Shown here: positions 1-20,936 of the stretch, in pieces
Position numbering within the stretch: the first letter of the stretch is position 1
How the letters are laid out: every line of letters starts with the position of its first letter
Origin: Myxococcaceae bacterium
GTDB lineage: Bacteria > Myxococcota > Myxococcia > Myxococcales > Myxococcaceae
Length of the DNA stretch: 32,231 nucleotides
Reading direction: 5' to 3'
Assembly: GCA_022842905.1 (NCBI GenBank)
Contig: JALHOS010000019.1
Location: 5,651 to 37,881, forward strand
Translations under genes and position numbers: made by a program
Notes under the pieces: generated by a model
Databases searched by the model: none
What the model was told of the DNA's origin: nothing
The model's input: the letters and a program-made list of their open reading frames with translations, nothing else

Positions 1-1665
1 CCCGAGCCCGCCCAACCCGCCGAGCCCACCCAAGCCACCGGCGGAGAACCCGGACTGGAACGGCACGTTCTGGCCGACCGTGATCTCCGCCTCTTCGTTG
101 TCGGTGGTCAGAATGTGCGGCGTCGACAGCACGTTCACGTCGCTGCTCGTCTGCATGGCGTTCATGACCAACCCGAACGCCGGCACGCTCAGCCCTTCCG
201 CGAGCTGAATCGTCTGTGTTCCTTGAATGCCAGACAGAAAGCCGCTCAGGCTCAGCAAGCTGGCCGGGCTGATCGACGGCGGGAGCGGGCTGTTCCGTGA
301 GTACTTGGTGCCGAAGAAGATCGGCTGGATCGGCGAGCCGGACTTGAGCGGAATGCCGCCGTGCAGATTGATACCCAGCTCCGAGCTGCGGTCCAGGTTT
401 ACCTCCATGATCACCGCCTCGACGAAGACCTGGCGGCGGCGAATGTCGAGCTTCTCGATCACCCGCACCAGCGACCGGTAGTCGTTCTGGCTGGCGATGA
501 CGACGAGCGCGTTGGTGGCCTTGTCGGCGGACACCTTCACCTCACCTTGAAACAGCTCCGCGGCTGACGAGCCGCCCTTCTGCCCCGGGGGCGGCGCTGG
601 AGCCTTCGGCCGGTTCGCCGTGCCCTGCGCCAGCGTCTGCAACGTCGACGCGACCTCTTCGGCGTTCGCGTTCTCGAGGTAGTAGACGTTGATGCGCCCT
701 TCCCCCGAGATCGGAATGTCGATCTCCCGCACCAGCGCCATGATCCGGTCCATGGCCGCCGGCGTCGCGATGATGATGAGCTTGTTCGTCCGCTCGTCGG
801 GAATGAGCTGGGTCAGCGTGGCCGGGCCTTCGGCCGGCTTCTTCGCTTCTTGCCCCGGCACCGCGCTGCCCGACGGCGAGACCGGCATCGCGGCGAGGTT
901 GCCCGGCCGCTGCCCCGGCCGCGCCTGCTTCGCTTCGAACAGCTTGGTGACCTTGTCGGCGATCTCCTGGGCTGTGGCGTAGTTGATCTGCAGAATCCGC
1001 ACTTCGTCGGTGCTCGCCTTCGCGTCGAGCTGCTCGGCGATCTTCTCGAGCCGGTGCATGTTCGACCCCAGGTCGTTCACGATGATCGTGTCCGGCTGGA
1101 AGGGAATGGTGTCGCCCGACGGCGTGACCAACTGCTGCAGCACGCCGCGGAGGGTCTCGATCTCCACGTGCTTGACCTTGAACACCCGCGTCACCATTTG
1201 CTCGTTGAGCGTGTACGGCTCGGTCGGGTCGGTGATCGTGGGAATCGTGAACTGCTTGGCGCGCTGCTTGTCGATGATCTTGAGGAACTTGCCGTGCTGG
1301 TAGACGGACAGGCTGTTCGAATCGAGCGCCGCCAGGAACGCCGCGTAGAACTGGTCGGAGTCGACTTCGACCTTGCCGTTCTCCGGACCGATGATGCTGA
1401 TCTTCCCGCGAATGTTCTCCGGCAAGATGAACGTGCGGCACGTCACGTCGGACACGGTCTGGACCAACTTCTCGATCTCGACCTTGTCGAAGTAGATGTT
1501 GTACTTGCCCTTCTTGCGCGCTTCTTCGCAGGTGGGCTTCTTCGGCGCGATCGTCGTCCCCGCACCGGCTGGCGCTGGAGCAGGCGAAGGCGCGGGCTGG
1601 GCCAACACAGACATGGCGCCCAGACCAACTACGAACAGAACTGTACGAGTCATGGTGGAAGTCAT
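1..1665 (-). CDS. gspD: Type II secretion secretin GspD (C-terminus beyond window)
   Basis: Outer-membrane secretin that forms the exit channel of the type II secretion system. Reading leftward from the ATG at 1665, 555 codons stay open to the window edge, so the C-terminal end of the secretin barrel lies outside. Residues 6-23 form a signal peptide (MTRTVLFVVGLGAMSVLA), followed by an Ala/Pro-rich linker. N0 lies at about 50-135, and N1-N3 fill about 150-425 (e.g. VFKVKHVEIETLRGVL, INVYYLENANAEEVASTL, DKATNALVVIAS). The secretin domain begins near 435 with RRRQVFVEAVIMEV, and VGQNVPF sits close to the edge. A Gly-Leu-Gly repeat follows VGQNVPFQSGF, probably a surface loop. The ATG overlaps the gspC stop (ATGA), so the genes are translationally coupled; an in-frame ATG at 1653 is an alternative start. 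Identification is firm. Confidence 0.95.
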   Translation of the reverse strand, partial: MTSTMTRTVLFVVGLGAMSVLAQPAPSPAPAPAGAGTTIAPKKPTCEEARKKGKYNIYFDKVEIEKLVQTVSDVTCRTFILPENIRGKISIIGPENGKVEVDSDQFYAAFLAALDSNSLSVYQHGKFLKIIDKQRAKQFTIPTITDPTEPYTLNEQMVTRVFKVKHVEIETLRGVLQQLVTPSGDTIPFQPDTIIVNDLGSNMHRLEKIAEQLDAKASTDEVRILQINYATAQEIADKVTKLFEAKQARPGQRPGNLAAMPVSPSGSAVPGQEAKKPAEGPATLTQLIPDERTNKLIIIATPAAMDRIMALVREIDIPISGEGRINVYYLENANAEEVASTLQTLAQGTANRPKAPAPPPGQKGGSSAAELFQGEVKVSADKATNALVVIASQNDYRSLVRVIEKLDIRRRQVFVEAVIMEVNLDRSSELGINLHGGIPLKSGSPIQPIFFGTKYSRNSPLPPSISPASLLSLSGFLSGIQGTQTIQLAEGLSVPAFGLVMNAMQTSSDVNVLSTPHILTTDNEEAEITVGQNVPFQSGFSAGGLGGLGGLGGLG

Positions 1666-2591
1666 CGAACGTTGTAGGTCTTTCGAACCGCGGCGCCGTT
1701 CCGCTCGACCTCGATGTCGATGCGAGAGGCCTCTTTGAGCTTGCTGTAGATCTCCAGCGCCTTCTCAGGGCTGTTCAGGTCGTAACCGTTGATGCGCTTG
1801 ATCACGTCCCCGTTCTGAATGCCGATTCGGGAGTAGATGGAATCGGGCCGAATCGAGAACAGCTTGAAGCCCTGGGCGACGCCGTCCTTGAACGCGGGGA
1901 CGATGCGCGCCTGCATGGCCACGTCGTTCAGGTTCGACAGCGTCTTGTCGATCTCCGCCCGCGGCACCTCGTAGTCGTTCTCACTCGTCTGCTTGATGCT
2001 GGCGCCCAGCCCGCTCGACGGCGGCGGCGCGTCGTTCACGGCCTTGGCGACGGCCATCATCGGCGGAGGCGCGACCGGCGCCGCGGCCACCGGCTGCCCG
2101 TTCCCCGGCACCTCGTCGATGTACTCGCGCCGGTTGTTGTTGAGCACCAGCACGCGCTTGCGCTCGATCTCGAGGATCTTCGCGCCCTGAATCGTGTCGT
2201 CCACGCGGTAGGTGTTGCTCCGCTGCGTCGCCATGTCCTGGATCGACGCCACGCTCCACTGCGGGAAGCCCTCGGCCACCATGGTGCCGAGCAGCTTCAC
2301 GTTGAGCGACGTGTGCACCGGCGCCGAGTTCAGGTCGACCGTCGGCTCCTTCGGCTCTTCGACCTTGGGCTCGATCTTCCCCGGCAGCCCTGTGAGTTTG
2401 GCCAGCCGCTCGAAGCTCAGGCTCGCCAGCGGCTCCGCCACCGGCTTGGGCCCCGACTTCGCCTGCGCCGTCGGCAGCGGCAGCAGCGCGGCTTCCACGA
2501 AGCCGTTCGCCGTCCGCGCGACGAGCACCCCCACCGCCAACAGAAAGGCGAGGTGCACGATCCAGAAATGCCGCTTGAACAGGAACTCCAC
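1662..2591 (-). CDS. gspC: Type II secretion inner-membrane protein GspC
   Basis: Inner-membrane subunit that links the type II secretion platform to the secretin. Taking the GTG at 2591, the 309-residue protein has a short cytoplasmic tail (MEFLFKRHF), one membrane helix at about 9-26, a periplasmic homology-region domain at about 95-165 that would contact GspD N0, an Ala/Pro linker, and a PDZ-like domain at about 240-305 (SRIGIQNGDVIKRINGYDL). A TTG at 2609 would add six residues, but it lies inside a sigma-54-type promoter match, and the sequence from GTG fits the compact N-terminus expected of GspC. No convincing Shine-Dalgarno precedes either start. The stop overlaps the gspD ATG. It is probably the first gene of a gsp operon continuing left. 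Confidence 0.9.
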   Translation of the reverse strand: MEFLFKRHFWIVHLAFLLAVGVLVARTANGFVEAALLPLPTAQAKSGPKPVAEPLASLSFERLAKLTGLPGKIEPKVEEPKEPTVDLNSAPVHTSLNVKLLGTMVAEGFPQWSVASIQDMATQRSNTYRVDDTIQGAKILEIERKRVLVLNNNRREYIDEVPGNGQPVAAAPVAPPPMMAVAKAVNDAPPPSSGLGASIKQTSENDYEVPRAEIDKTLSNLNDVAMQARIVPAFKDGVAQGFKLFSIRPDSIYSRIGIQNGDVIKRINGYDLNSPEKALEIYSKLKEASRIDIEVERNGAAVRKTYNVR

Positions 2592-2604
2592 GGGCCAGCC
2601 ACGA

Positions 2605-2620
2605 AGCAAGCCGGGTGCCA
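2605..2620 (-). promoter_or_regulatory. Sigma-54-type promoter, proximal, facing gspC
   Basis: On the minus strand this reads TGGCACCCGGCTTGCT, against the sigma-54 consensus TGGCACG-N4-TTGCW. The only mismatch is the base after TGGCAC, and the invariant GG and GC are exactly ten bases apart. Predicted transcription start is near 2594, only three bases before the GTG proposed for gspC, which would give an almost leaderless message. Either that is real, or the distal element is the working promoter and this one is fortuitous. A sigma-54 activator gene lies immediately divergent. Confidence 0.5.
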
Positions 2621-2659
2621 GCTAGCTTCTTGATTTTACTGACGAATCAACCCTCTCCA

Positions 2660-2676
2660 AGCTGCGGCCGTGCCAA
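2660..2676 (-). promoter_or_regulatory. Sigma-54-type promoter, distal, facing gspC
   Basis: The minus strand reads TTGGCACGGCCGCAGCT. The -24 box TTGGCACG is perfect and the -12 GC is at the correct ten-base spacing from GG, but the -12 box is CAGC rather than TTGC. Predicted start is near 2649, leaving a leader of about 58 bases before gspC. It lies about 55 bases upstream of the proximal element. Confidence 0.4.
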
Positions 2677-2683
2677 TTTGGCA
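2671..2683. promoter_or_regulatory. 13-base palindrome between gspC and the activator
   Basis: TGCCAATTTGGCA is a perfect six-base inverted repeat around one central base. It overlaps the -24 box of the distal sigma-54-type element and sits 75 bases upstream of the activator ATG, so it could be an operator for either direction. No known regulator site was matched. Confidence 0.3.
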
Positions 2684-2757
2684 GGCCCCCGGGCCCCCAG
2701 GTGCCAGCGTGGCGTCGGCGCCTGTCTGCGGGCCCAGGCGTGCTAGGTCGTCGCGCC

Positions 2758-4389
<1,632 letters not shown>

Positions 4390-4476: not shown

Positions 4477-4992
4477 ATGAGCGCGCTCCCCAACCTCGAC
4501 CAGCTGTACCAGGCCCACCGTCGGCGGGCGCTGGCGATCGCCAAGCGGATCGTCGGCGACCAGGACGAAGCCGAAGACGTGGTGCAGGAGGTCTTCGCGC
4601 GGCTGTTCAGCCAGCCGTTCCGCTTCGACGGCCGCGCCGCTTGCACCACCTGGCTGCACCGGGTGCTGGTGAACTCGTCGATCAACTGGCTGCGCGCCAA
4701 GAAGCGCCGCGGCAAGCTCACCAGCGAGCTGAGCGAGGCGAAGGACCCCGAAGCCAGCGCGCTCAACACCGAACGCCAGGAGCTGCTGCTTCGCGCCATG
4801 CAGGGGCTCTCGTCGCAGCACCGCGCGGTGGTGACGCTGCGCGATCTGCAAGGCCACTCCTACCCGGAGATCGCCCGGCGCCTGGGCGTGCCCGAAGGCA
4901 CCGTGAAGAGCGCGCTCAACCGCGGGCGCAGCCGGCTCCTCGCCGCGCTGGCCGCGACCGGGGACGAGCCCCTCACAGGCCAAAGCGAGTGA
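4477..4992 (+). CDS. ECF-type sigma-70 family RNA polymerase sigma factor
   Basis: A 171-residue sigma factor of the two-domain (ECF) type. Region 2 lies at about 10-85 (AIAKRIVGDQDEAEDVVQEVF, then TTWLHRVLVNSSINWLR). Region 4 at about 108-160 includes LSSQHRAVVTLRDLQGHSYPE and a recognition-helix region with GTVKSALNRGRSRL. The ATG is preceded by a G-rich stretch (GCGGGGGCG) that may act as a weak ribosome site. It lies 87 bases after the sigma-54 activator on the same strand and could be read through from it. No anti-sigma gene is adjacent: the next gene is convergent and overlaps this one by 20 bases at the 3' ends. The regulon cannot be read from the sequence. Confidence 0.9.
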   Translation: MSALPNLDQLYQAHRRRALAIAKRIVGDQDEAEDVVQEVFARLFSQPFRFDGRAACTTWLHRVLVNSSINWLRAKKRRGKLTSELSEAKDPEASALNTERQELLLRAMQGLSSQHRAVVTLRDLQGHSYPEIARRLGVPEGTVKSALNRGRSRLLAALAATGDEPLTGQSE

Positions 4993-18408: not shown

Positions 18409-19470
18409 TCACTCGCGCACGAACTCTTCGAAGCGCTGCTTCTGAGTCGACTTGTGGAAGGCCTCTTCGCCGGAGATCTTCCCGTCCTTCGCGAACGCGT
18501 AGAGCACGTCGTCCATGGCCTGCATGCCCTGCTGCCGGCCGGACTGGATGATCGAGTGGAGCATGGGCGTGTTCCCTTCGCGGATCACGTTGGGCAGGCC
18601 CGGCGTCTTGAGCAGGATCTCGTGCACCGCGACGCGCCCCTTGCCGTCCGGGGTGCGCAACAACAGCTGGGAAACGACGGCGGCCAGCGACTCCGAGAGC
18701 ATGGTGCGCACCTGCTGCTGCTGATCGGTCGGGAACGCGTCGATGACACGATCGATCGTCTTGGCGGCGTTGTTGGTGTGGAGCGTTCCGAACACGAGCA
18801 CGCCCATCTCCGCCGCGGTGATCGCCAGGCTGATCGTCTCCATGTCGCGCATTTCGCCGACCAGAATGACGCCGGGGTCTTGCCGAATCGCGGATCGCAG
18901 CGCCGCCGAGAAGTTCTTGGTGTCGGTGCCGACTTCCCGCTGGCTGACCGTCGACTTCTTGTTGGGGTGCACGAACTCGACCGGGTCTTCGATGGTGATG
19001 ATGTGCTTGGCGTGCCGCGTGTTGATGCGGTCGATGATCGACGCGAGCGTCGTCGACTTGCCCGAGCCGGTGGGCCCCGTCACCAGCACGAGCCCTTGCT
19101 CCAGGTCGGCCAACTCCCACAGCGCGACCGGCGCCTTGAGCTCTTCGAGGGTGCGGATCTTCTCGGGGATGATGCGGAACACGGCCCCGGTGCCGCGCTC
19201 CTGGTTGAAGTAGTTCGCGCGGAAGCGGGCGACTCCCGGCAGCGCGTACGCGAAGTCCAGGTCCAGGTTCTTCAGGAAATGGCTCCACTGCTCTTCGGTG
19301 GCGATCTCCTCGAGCAGCGCCAAGAGCGCGTCCTGCGTGAGCACTTGCCAGCCGGGCACCGCCTTGACCTCACCGTGCTGCCGCAGGTGGGGCTTCATGC
19401 CCGCGGCCAGGTGCAAGTCCGAGCCGCCGTTGTCTTTGAGGTACCGAAACAACACGTCGATCTGCGCCAT
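18409..19470 (-). CDS. pilT: PilT-family type IV pilus retraction ATPase
   Basis: A 353-residue hexameric ATPase that would power pilus retraction. The reading frame extends further upstream, but the ATG at 19470, with GGGAG 12 bases before it, starts the conserved N-terminus (MAQIDVLFRYLKDNGGSDLH). Walker A GPTGSGKST is at 132-140, the Asp box around HIITIEDPVEFVH at 156-168, Walker B GVILVGEMRDMET at 200-212, and the His box around FGTLHTNN at 227-234. PilT's C-terminal LIRE-type motif is present as PNVIREGNT. It lies 20 bases downstream of a second PilT-family gene. No pilin or PilB gene is in the window. Assignment as a retraction-type rather than extension ATPase rests on length and the PilT-like ends. 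Confidence 0.92.
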   Translation of the reverse strand: MAQIDVLFRYLKDNGGSDLHLAAGMKPHLRQHGEVKAVPGWQVLTQDALLALLEEIATEEQWSHFLKNLDLDFAYALPGVARFRANYFNQERGTGAVFRIIPEKIRTLEELKAPVALWELADLEQGLVLVTGPTGSGKSTTLASIIDRINTRHAKHIITIEDPVEFVHPNKKSTVSQREVGTDTKNFSAALRSAIRQDPGVILVGEMRDMETISLAITAAEMGVLVFGTLHTNNAAKTIDRVIDAFPTDQQQQVRTMLSESLAAVVSQLLLRTPDGKGRVAVHEILLKTPGLPNVIREGNTPMLHSIIQSGRQQGMQAMDDVLYAFAKDGKISGEEAFHKSTQKQRFEEFVRE

Positions 19471-19490
19471 GAGCTGTCTGTTCTCCCATT

Positions 19491-20936
19491 TCAGGCGAAG
19501 CGCTTGGGGTCTTCGGCGAAGCGGCGGGCGACGTCCTTGGAGACCTGGCCGCTCTTCACCAACTCCAGGATCGAGTCGTCGAGCAGACACATGCCCTCGG
19601 ACCGGGCCGTCTGCATGATCGACCGAATCTGGAACGTCTTCTCTTCGCGAATGAGGTTCGACACCGACGGCTTGACGAACAGCGCTTCGATGGCGGGGAT
19701 CCGCTTGAGCCCGTCGACGGAAGGAAGCAGCCGCTGCGAGACGATGCCGCGCAGCGACTCGGACACCATGGCGCGGATCTGCGACTGCTGCTTGGGCGGG
19801 AACACGTCGAGGATTCGGTTGATGGTGCGGATCGCGTTGTTGGTGTGCAGCGTGCCGAGCACCAAGTGGCCGGTCTCCGCCGCGGTGATCGCCAGCTGAA
19901 TCGTCTCGAGATCGCGCAGCTCGCCGATGACGATGACGTCCGGGTCCTCACGCAGCGCCGCGCGCAGCGCGTTGGCGAAGCTCTTGGTGTGCGTGCCGGC
20001 CTGCCGCTGGTTGACGATGCAGCCCTTGGGCGAGTGCACGTACTCGATCGGGTCTTCCACGGTGATGATGTGGTCGGTGCGGGTGGCGTTGAGCAGGGAC
20101 ACCAGCGCCGCGAGCGTCGACGACTTCCCCGAGCCGGCCGGGCCCGTCACCAGCACGAGGCCCTGGTGGAACTCGGTCAGCCGCTCGAGCACCTTGGGCA
20201 GCCCCAGGGACTGGAGCGTCGGCGGCTCGGCGGGAATCGGGCGGAACACCGCGTCCCACCCGCGCTGCTGCTTGTAGAAGCTGGCGCGGAAGCGGCCCAC
20301 GTCCGGCAGCACCAGCGCCGCGTCGAGCTCCCAGGTGGTGTCCAGCACCGCGCGCTGCTCGTCAGAGAGCGCGTCCTTCAAGATGAACTCGACGGCCTGC
20401 GCGTCGAGCACGCCGGTCTTCAGCTCGCGCAGGGTCCCGCCCACCCGCATCTGCAGCGCCGCGCCGGCGTGCACGTGCACGTCCGACGCCTTGGACTCCA
20501 TCGCCTTGGCGAGGATCTGCTTGAGCGACGGCAGCCGGGCGCGCTTCTGCTGGGCCACCTCGTCGTCGAAGGACATGGCCTTCGCGGGCTTCTTGGGACC
20601 GACGTGGTGCAGCGGCTCTTCAGGGACCGGCGCGGCTGCGGGCGCGGGCTTGGCTTCGGCGGGCTTGGGCGCTGCGGGCGCAGGCACCGCCGAGGAGGTT
20701 TGGGCGGGGCTCCCTGCAGCCTGCTTCTGCTTGGCCAGGTACTGCATCTGCGCGTTGAGCAGCCAGTCGAGCTGCTCCTTGGTGATGAACTTGAGCTCGA
20801 GGAGCACGTCGCCCAGCCGCTTCCCCGGCGTGCCGGCCTTGTGCTTGGCGACGGCCTGGTTCACCTGCTCCTGCGTGAGCAGCTTGTAGTGGAGCGCGAT
20901 CCGCCCGAGCAGCCCTTCTTCCGACGTCGCTGTCAT
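19491..20936 (-). CDS. PilT-family ATPase with tandem MshEN-like N-terminus
   Basis: A 481-residue protein. The C-terminal two thirds is a PilT-family ATPase: Walker A GPAGSGKSS (265-273), HIITVEDPIEYVH, DVIVIGELRDLET, HLVLGTLHTNN. The N-terminus is unlike ordinary PilT: two back-to-back segments (9-32 and 40-63) follow the MshEN half-motif, with LG, hydrophobics, and a helix-turn spacing ending in Q or H. The second segment has Arg40-Leu41-Gly42 and Gln63 in the positions that bind cyclic-di-GMP in MshE/GspE-type ATPases; the first has Leu9 and His32 at those places. An Ala/Pro linker (about 74-108) joins the modules. Cyclic-di-GMP binding is inferred. The gene is 20 bases upstream of the PilT gene and shares its operon. 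Confidence 0.9.
   Translation of the reverse strand: MTATSEEGLLGRIALHYKLLTQEQVNQAVAKHKAGTPGKRLGDVLLELKFITKEQLDWLLNAQMQYLAKQKQAAGSPAQTSSAVPAPAAPKPAEAKPAPAAAPVPEEPLHHVGPKKPAKAMSFDDEVAQQKRARLPSLKQILAKAMESKASDVHVHAGAALQMRVGGTLRELKTGVLDAQAVEFILKDALSDEQRAVLDTTWELDAALVLPDVGRFRASFYKQQRGWDAVFRPIPAEPPTLQSLGLPKVLERLTEFHQGLVLVTGPAGSGKSSTLAALVSLLNATRTDHIITVEDPIEYVHSPKGCIVNQRQAGTHTKSFANALRAALREDPDVIVIGELRDLETIQLAITAAETGHLVLGTLHTNNAIRTINRILDVFPPKQQSQIRAMVSESLRGIVSQRLLPSVDGLKRIPAIEALFVKPSVSNLIREEKTFQIRSIMQTARSEGMCLLDDSILELVKSGQVSKDVARRFAEDPKRFA

Follow-up and report, generated by a model that had tools for sequence, protein, structure and literature searches.

What turns on the gsp operon at gspC in myxobacteria is a question for which no account was met in the literature, and the locus analysed here raises it in a concrete form: in a 32,231-nucleotide stretch of a Myxococcaceae genome (hereafter the window), gspC lies next to a divergent gene for a sigma-54 activator, with sigma-54-like strings in the gap between them (Table 1). 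The genome (G000) is a 7.85 Mb draft in 667 contigs, with the window on contig G000:C19, and it encodes sigma-54 (G000:C245). The identity previously assigned to gspC is borne out by a T2SSC match and by NF041515 (GspC_delta; score 301 bits, cut-off 150), and gspF and pseudopilin-like genes lie to the left of gspD on the same contig (L241). The divergent gene was likewise read correctly as that of a sigma-54 activator, since its product has two FHA stretches, a Sigma54_activat domain with an intact GAFTGA motif and a Fis-type HTH. Downstream of it and co-directional is a gene for an ECF-type sigma factor (4477-4992, plus strand), and farther along the window two adjoining minus-strand ORFs (18409-20936) carry T2SSE-type ATPase domains of the PilT/PilB-like kind.

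Table 1. Features of the gspC upstream region and flanking genes (positions in the window)
Feature	Position	Strand	Remarks
gspD (secretin)	1..1665	-	continues past the window edge
gspC (GspC of type II secretion)	1662..2591	-	probable start GTG 2591-2589; ORF open from TTG 2609
Predicted transcription start (about +1)	2594..2594	-	inferred from the -12 position (-24/-12 geometry)
Predicted sigma-54 promoter of the gsp operon (element 1; -24 TGGCAC, -12 TTGC)	2605..2620	-	10/10 core, conserved before gspC
Weak IHF-like site, AATCAAGAAGCTA	2623..2635	-	8/9; between dyad 2 and the promoter; speculative
Second promoter of the first-pass annotation (element 2)	2660..2676	-	overlaps dyad 2; separate function unsupported
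Enhancer-like dyad 2, TGCCAATTTGGCA	2671..2683	.	palindrome about its central base; includes the -24-like part of element 2
Enhancer-like dyad 1, TGCCAGCGTGGCG	2702..2714	.	degenerate, 7/10 of TGACANNNTGTCA; 31 bp above dyad 2
FHA-type sigma-54 activator, divergent neighbour of gspC	2758..4389	+	two FHA, AAA with GAFTGA, Fis HTH

Two strings in this gap, both present on the minus strand at the positions given by the first-pass annotation, had been proposed as sigma-54 promoters facing gspC. The one closer to the gene, TGGCACCCGGCTTGCT, is indeed near-consensus, matching 11 of the 12 specified bases of TGGCACGN4TTGCW with G7 as the sole mismatch. It lies above the probable gspC start, and its placement outside ORFs depends on the GTG start being correct. 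Taken in its exact form (TGGCACN5TTGCW), TGGCACNNNNNTTGCW is the single copy in the window, where 0.05 is expected and at least one copy arises in 5 of 100 shuffles. On the scale of the whole genome, the exact pattern occurs four times and the reversed-pattern control also four times, so that the count does not exceed chance and there is no genome-wide excess; the other three copies lie outside the long ORFs callable around them. Elsewhere in the same genome, an exact element is located about 12 nt above the ORF of what looks like a small secreted protein (MRSLILVALLAATSGAAEQ...; L282, local positions 1201-1216, G000:C191).

Rarity alone is thus insufficient, and element 1 is judged genuine because it is conserved upstream of gspC. 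Among 79 Myxococcaceae genomes (drawn from the 95 with a gspC match; L210 in G042 lacked a usable start), the best GG-N10-GC element before gspC scores 10/10 in 71, 9/10 in 7 and 8/10 in one, and its terminal T is found in 77 of the 79. By genus, all 26 genera of the family have an element of at least 8/10, and 25 of them one of at least 9/10. Throughout the order, an element of at least 9/10 accompanied by a dyad of at least 9/10 (see below) is present at 109 of 115 gspC loci in eight of nine families (the count covers 115 genomes out of 138 that have gspC). The breakdown by family (f1 to f9, f1 being that of the window) is 89/90 in f1, 7/7 in each of f2 and f3, 1/1 in each of f4, f5 and f7, 2/2 in f6, 0/4 in f8 and 1/2 in f9; in the four genomes of f8 it is the promoter that fails (0/4), yet dyads remain in two. 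Four paralogue loci (L253-L256) were excluded from both the 79-genome and the 115-genome counts, and upstream of the second-copy gspC genes at two of them, L255 and L256, the sigma-54-like strings TGGTCCCGGCCTTGCT and TGGCCCCCGGCTTGCT were observed.

The notion that element 1 is a chance string draws on the equal genome-wide counts of the exact and reversed patterns, but a string kept before gspC in this many genomes makes it negligibly probable. Element 1 reads instead as a genuine and very old sigma-54 promoter of the gsp operon. Absence from relatives had been named as the observation that would speak against it; this comparison was run and the element is kept, and its presence in every genus of the family supports the proposed sigma-54 control of the operon through this site. 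Its distance to the gspC start codon is 13 nt in the window and 12-39 nt across the family, so that the leader in the window would measure about 3 nt before the GTG, i.e., the mRNA would be near-leaderless. Start codons located 12-18 nt below the -12 box were observed at gspC in genera similar to that of the window and, at the second target described below (the MXAN_2561 homolog), in most genomes, a geometry that predicts leaders of a few nucleotides at both genes.

The second proposed promoter, element 2, fared differently. Its GG-N10-GC spacing is as described, but it scores only 8/10, with CAGC in place of TTGC, and its position is occupied in relatives by a conserved dyad. Such a score is within noise given that the window contains 12 sites of at least 8/10 where a Markov-1 control window has about 19, and we rejected element 2 as a promoter. 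In sequence terms, it is half of the dyad TGCCAATTTGGCA, a putative enhancer half-site. At this position, relatives have TGACAAWTTGTCM-like dyads, and most genomes of the family have a second dyad 31-33 bp higher; the window itself has two enhancer-like TGMCANNNTGKCA sites about 31 bp apart, conserved upstream of the promoter, and the position of dyad 1 is conserved in relatives as well.

Of 96 family genomes, 70 contain the tandem dyad pattern, each exactly once, whereas the reversed control gives none. In 69 of the 70 it was placed by script at most 300 bp upstream of gspC; the last (G049), in which gspC is split, was placed by hand. The 26 family genomes without an exact tandem match include that of the window, the dyads of which use C/G variants; dyad 2, in particular, has C/G where most relatives have A/T. 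Helical phasing of the dyad distances, although conspicuous on inspection, was set aside (p = 0.11, 0.07 and 0.06 after related distances were collapsed), leaving a trend only. An IHF site between dyads and promoter is a matter of speculation: the best IHF-like score of 8/9 is reached in 20 of 79 loci compared with 1.35 in shuffles, but the loci are related, and only 44 of the 79 score at least 7. In Myxococcus-like genera (L194-L251), a conserved block, TATTCCGGAATAATTTC...CTTGGCCGTA, was observed 50-140 bp above gspC, between the dyads and the promoter.

The dyad also points to a second gene. In its single form, TGMCAWWWTGKC, it occurs at only two places in the genome of the window and at two in G062 (reversed control 0 in each), namely upstream of gspC and upstream of an MXAN_2561-family gene (NF045522), whose annotation gives a MYXO-CTERM anchor. 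In each of the four further genomes tested, TGMCAWWWTGKC likewise precedes the MXAN_2561-family gene and has one to three extra places. NF045522 detects the family in 141 of the order's 145 genomes and in none of 14 control genomes. When the upstream regions of this target were searched in 75 of the 141 genomes that have it, with thresholds of at least 8/10 for the sigma-54 element and at least 9/10 for the dyad, both were found in 66 of the 75, as opposed to a Markov-1 control mean of 0.12 and maximum of 1. The element is typically TGGCCY-N5-TTGCT, and annotated starts that are true start codons usually lie 13-18 nt below it (e.g., L313). Orthologous lipoprotein genes (GC[SA]PKKIPGT...; L311, G011:C119:10702, and L312, G047:C4:43892) have a dyad site too, but no consistent -24/-12 element, and were rejected as a third target.

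Five of six second-target proteins score above the NF045522 cut-off of 150 (226.6 bits for the copy of the window's genome), the sixth, from G108, being below it at 110 bits. Only two of the six (L308, L324) exceed the cut-off of a MYXO-CTERM C-terminal model (TIGR03382), and the window genome's own copy does not; a GC-TM-RRR tail is visible by eye. The kin receptor TraA and other MYXO-CTERM proteins are reported in the available passages of the source to reach the cell surface via the type II system (PMC11980579). Given its family name and visible tail, the MXAN_2561-family protein is a probable client of that system, and we infer a small conserved sigma-54 regulon that joins the secretion machine with a likely cargo.

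Which activator would read the dyads? Among 115 genomes (with 120 loci scanned, including paralogue and duplicate loci), 82 have an NtrC-type activator gene, hereafter EBP-2, immediately before gspC and in the same direction, 168-309 bp away except in G051, where the match is partial and 1,145 bp distant. No adjacent EBP-2 was seen at 37 of the 120 loci; short fetches, contig ends and paralogue loci account for some of these and others are real cases, and the 37 include relatives of the window's own lineage. According to Pfam, EBP-2 consists of a receiver, a sigma-54 AAA domain and a Fis HTH (the window genome's ortholog, L433, and the G143 copy, L413). The ortholog in the genome of the window (G000:C306:2406-3320) was found in a search of 20 of the 33 EBP loci of that genome, at 66-80% identity against about 50% for the next paralogues, and is unlinked to the gsp operon there. 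Aligned with this copy, the EBP-2 HTH shows 63-85% identity across f1, f2, f3, f4, f6 and f9. A dyad that is conserved across families should have a reader with a conserved recognition helix, which favours EBP-2 over the FHA activator; EBP-2 is most likely the reader, as a favoured rather than a proven candidate.

The rivals to this assignment concern either the nature of the dyads or the identity of the reader. Palindromes with conserved half-sites would also suit a classical repressor, and the dyads might be operators of an unrelated one, with the sigma-54 promoter served by a distant enhancer or by none. Their layout, however, is that of enhancer sites, 55-144 bp above the -24 box at varying distances and often in tandem 31-33 bp apart, and at both targets in most genomes the dyad is accompanied by a sigma-54 element. 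A dyad-symmetric upstream site common to both target promoters is present, as expected of an EBP enhancer; we regard the operator explanation as very improbable. Closer to hand is the divergent FHA activator itself, which had been proposed to switch on gspC and could do so by binding the dyads, with phosphothreonine binding by its FHA domains as the signal input. FHA-domain EBPs were reportedly described in M. xanthus by Jelsbak in PNAS in 2005, and the divergent gene of the window has the same architecture. The activator adjoins gspC in the window with its GAFTGA motif intact, is found in 92 of 96 family genomes at E<=1e-100 and is linked to the gsp cluster by position: of 95 gene pairs, 73 (f6 and f9 included) place it on the strand of gspC and 12.6-21.2 kb downstream (behind gspM/gspN-like genes in L003 and L031), the remainder being 17 pairs on different contigs, four unlinked pairs in f3 and the single divergent pair of the window. 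Divergent adjacency is thus private to the window among the genomes where the arrangement is visible.

The helix of the FHA activator, however, does not follow the dyad. Its HTH is 57-70% identical within f1 but only 24-37% in f2, f3, f6, f7, f8 and f9, although the dyad persists outside f1; these values come from an alignment of 29 f1 loci and nine others (own-genome paralogue baseline 0.24-0.48), which repeated a comparison made with a regular expression that imposed part of the motif. The f2 genomes have paralogue-level matches only (45-51%, covering at most residues 91-539), yet promoters and dyads in 7/7. In all three f3 members examined (L399, L400, L402), the sigma-54 contact loop reads GAFSGA rather than GAFTGA, and the gene is unlinked to gsp in the four f3 genomes checked. 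The FHA neighbour is probably not the reader of the dyads, and the claim that the adjacent activator drives gspC is probably wrong: the adjacency is private, the HTH is not conserved, and another EBP adjoins gspC in most relatives. It is unlikely that the dyads belong to the FHA activator, and only slightly less so that both proteins act, EBP-2 through the dyads and the FHA activator through another site or in mixed hexamers, with the consequence that two-component and Ser/Thr-kinase signals would be integrated. Joint action accords with the position of the two genes on either side of the gsp operon in most Myxococcaceae, but no second conserved dyad class was noticed there, and the interval between dyads and gspC shows only the weak IHF-like matches and the block of the Myxococcus-like genera. 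Autoregulation of the FHA gene by sigma-54 finds no plus-strand element above 6/10 in the interval of about 2560-2745.

With EBP-2 as the preferred reader, the following mechanism can be proposed. The two TGMCANNNTGKCA dyads would be the enhancer sites of the gspC promoter, and the EBP-2 gene, the upstream neighbour of gspC in most of the order, would have moved away from it in the genome of the window. A histidine kinase would activate EBP-2, which, once phosphorylated, would oligomerise on the dyads and loop to the sigma-54 polymerase, giving gspC transcription from a near-leaderless start in this genome. By also switching on the MXAN_2561-family MYXO-CTERM protein, EBP-2 would co-induce the machine and a surface protein, whereas the divergent FHA activator would be a second regulator linked to the operon by position only. 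The account as a whole, with element 1 as the promoter, the dyads as enhancers, EBP-2 as their reader and the MXAN_2561-family gene as co-target, is derived from comparative sequence analysis, and we consider it likely to be correct.

Sigma-54 control had been described as not generally associated with gsp genes, a statement that proved too broad. In the available passages of the respective reports, the T2SS-2 of Plesiomonas shigelloides shows RpoN-dependent expression by transcriptome and qRT-PCR (PMC9743648), and the type II cluster of M. xanthus has an internal Nla28/sigma-54 promoter at MXAN2511 (PMC9765219). The likeness to the former is that RpoN positively affects type II secretion genes; the difference is that those passages name neither a T2SS-2 promoter nor an activator (PMC9743648). 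Nla28 is similar in that sigma-54 and an EBP act on myxobacterial type II secretion genes, but its promoter is GGGCGCG-N4-TTGCA and its half-site CT(C/G)CG(C/G)AG, as opposed to the TGACA/TGTCA dyad here (PMC9765219). The gspD gene of M. xanthus is MXAN2514, so by numbering gspC is presumably MXAN2515 and EBP-2 MXAN2516; neither MXAN2515 nor gspC appears in the main text of the Nla28 paper, in the passages available (PMC9765219). The part of the earlier statement that stands concerns the gspC promoter itself: in a literature search with key older papers outside its reach, neither a sigma-54 promoter nor a dyad at gspC of myxobacteria was found described, and within the same scope neither was shared control of the type II machine and a MYXO-CTERM protein.

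The closest parallel is the PrsK/PrsR-sigma-54 system, proposed in 2006 to control PEP-CTERM proteins, in which, according to the passages available, an NtrC-type regulator, a conserved upstream site and a -24/-12 promoter are likewise combined with C-terminally sorted surface proteins (PMC1569441). The PrsR site, however, precedes most proteobacterial PEP-CTERM genes (PMC1569441), whereas the site described here is common to one MYXO-CTERM family and the type II secretion operon itself. A broader reading, which we offer tentatively and hold at somewhat below even chances, is that across the order a single two-component activator of the NtrC type exclusively serves two sigma-54 promoters that are unlinked, those of the type II operon and of one MYXO-CTERM surface protein exported by the machine. 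This would be a two-promoter regulon with a founding cargo and near-leaderless mRNAs, in which the FHA activator travels with the operon as a Ser/Thr-kinase input.

These observations correct a natural guess, in that the activator gene nearest to gspC is probably not the right one. With a promoter kept across relatives, a putative enhancer of defined sequence and a candidate activator, the proposed control can be put to the test in any myxobacterium that is tractable, and the second target marks a single surface protein family, itself uncharacterised, as probably tied to the type II machine.
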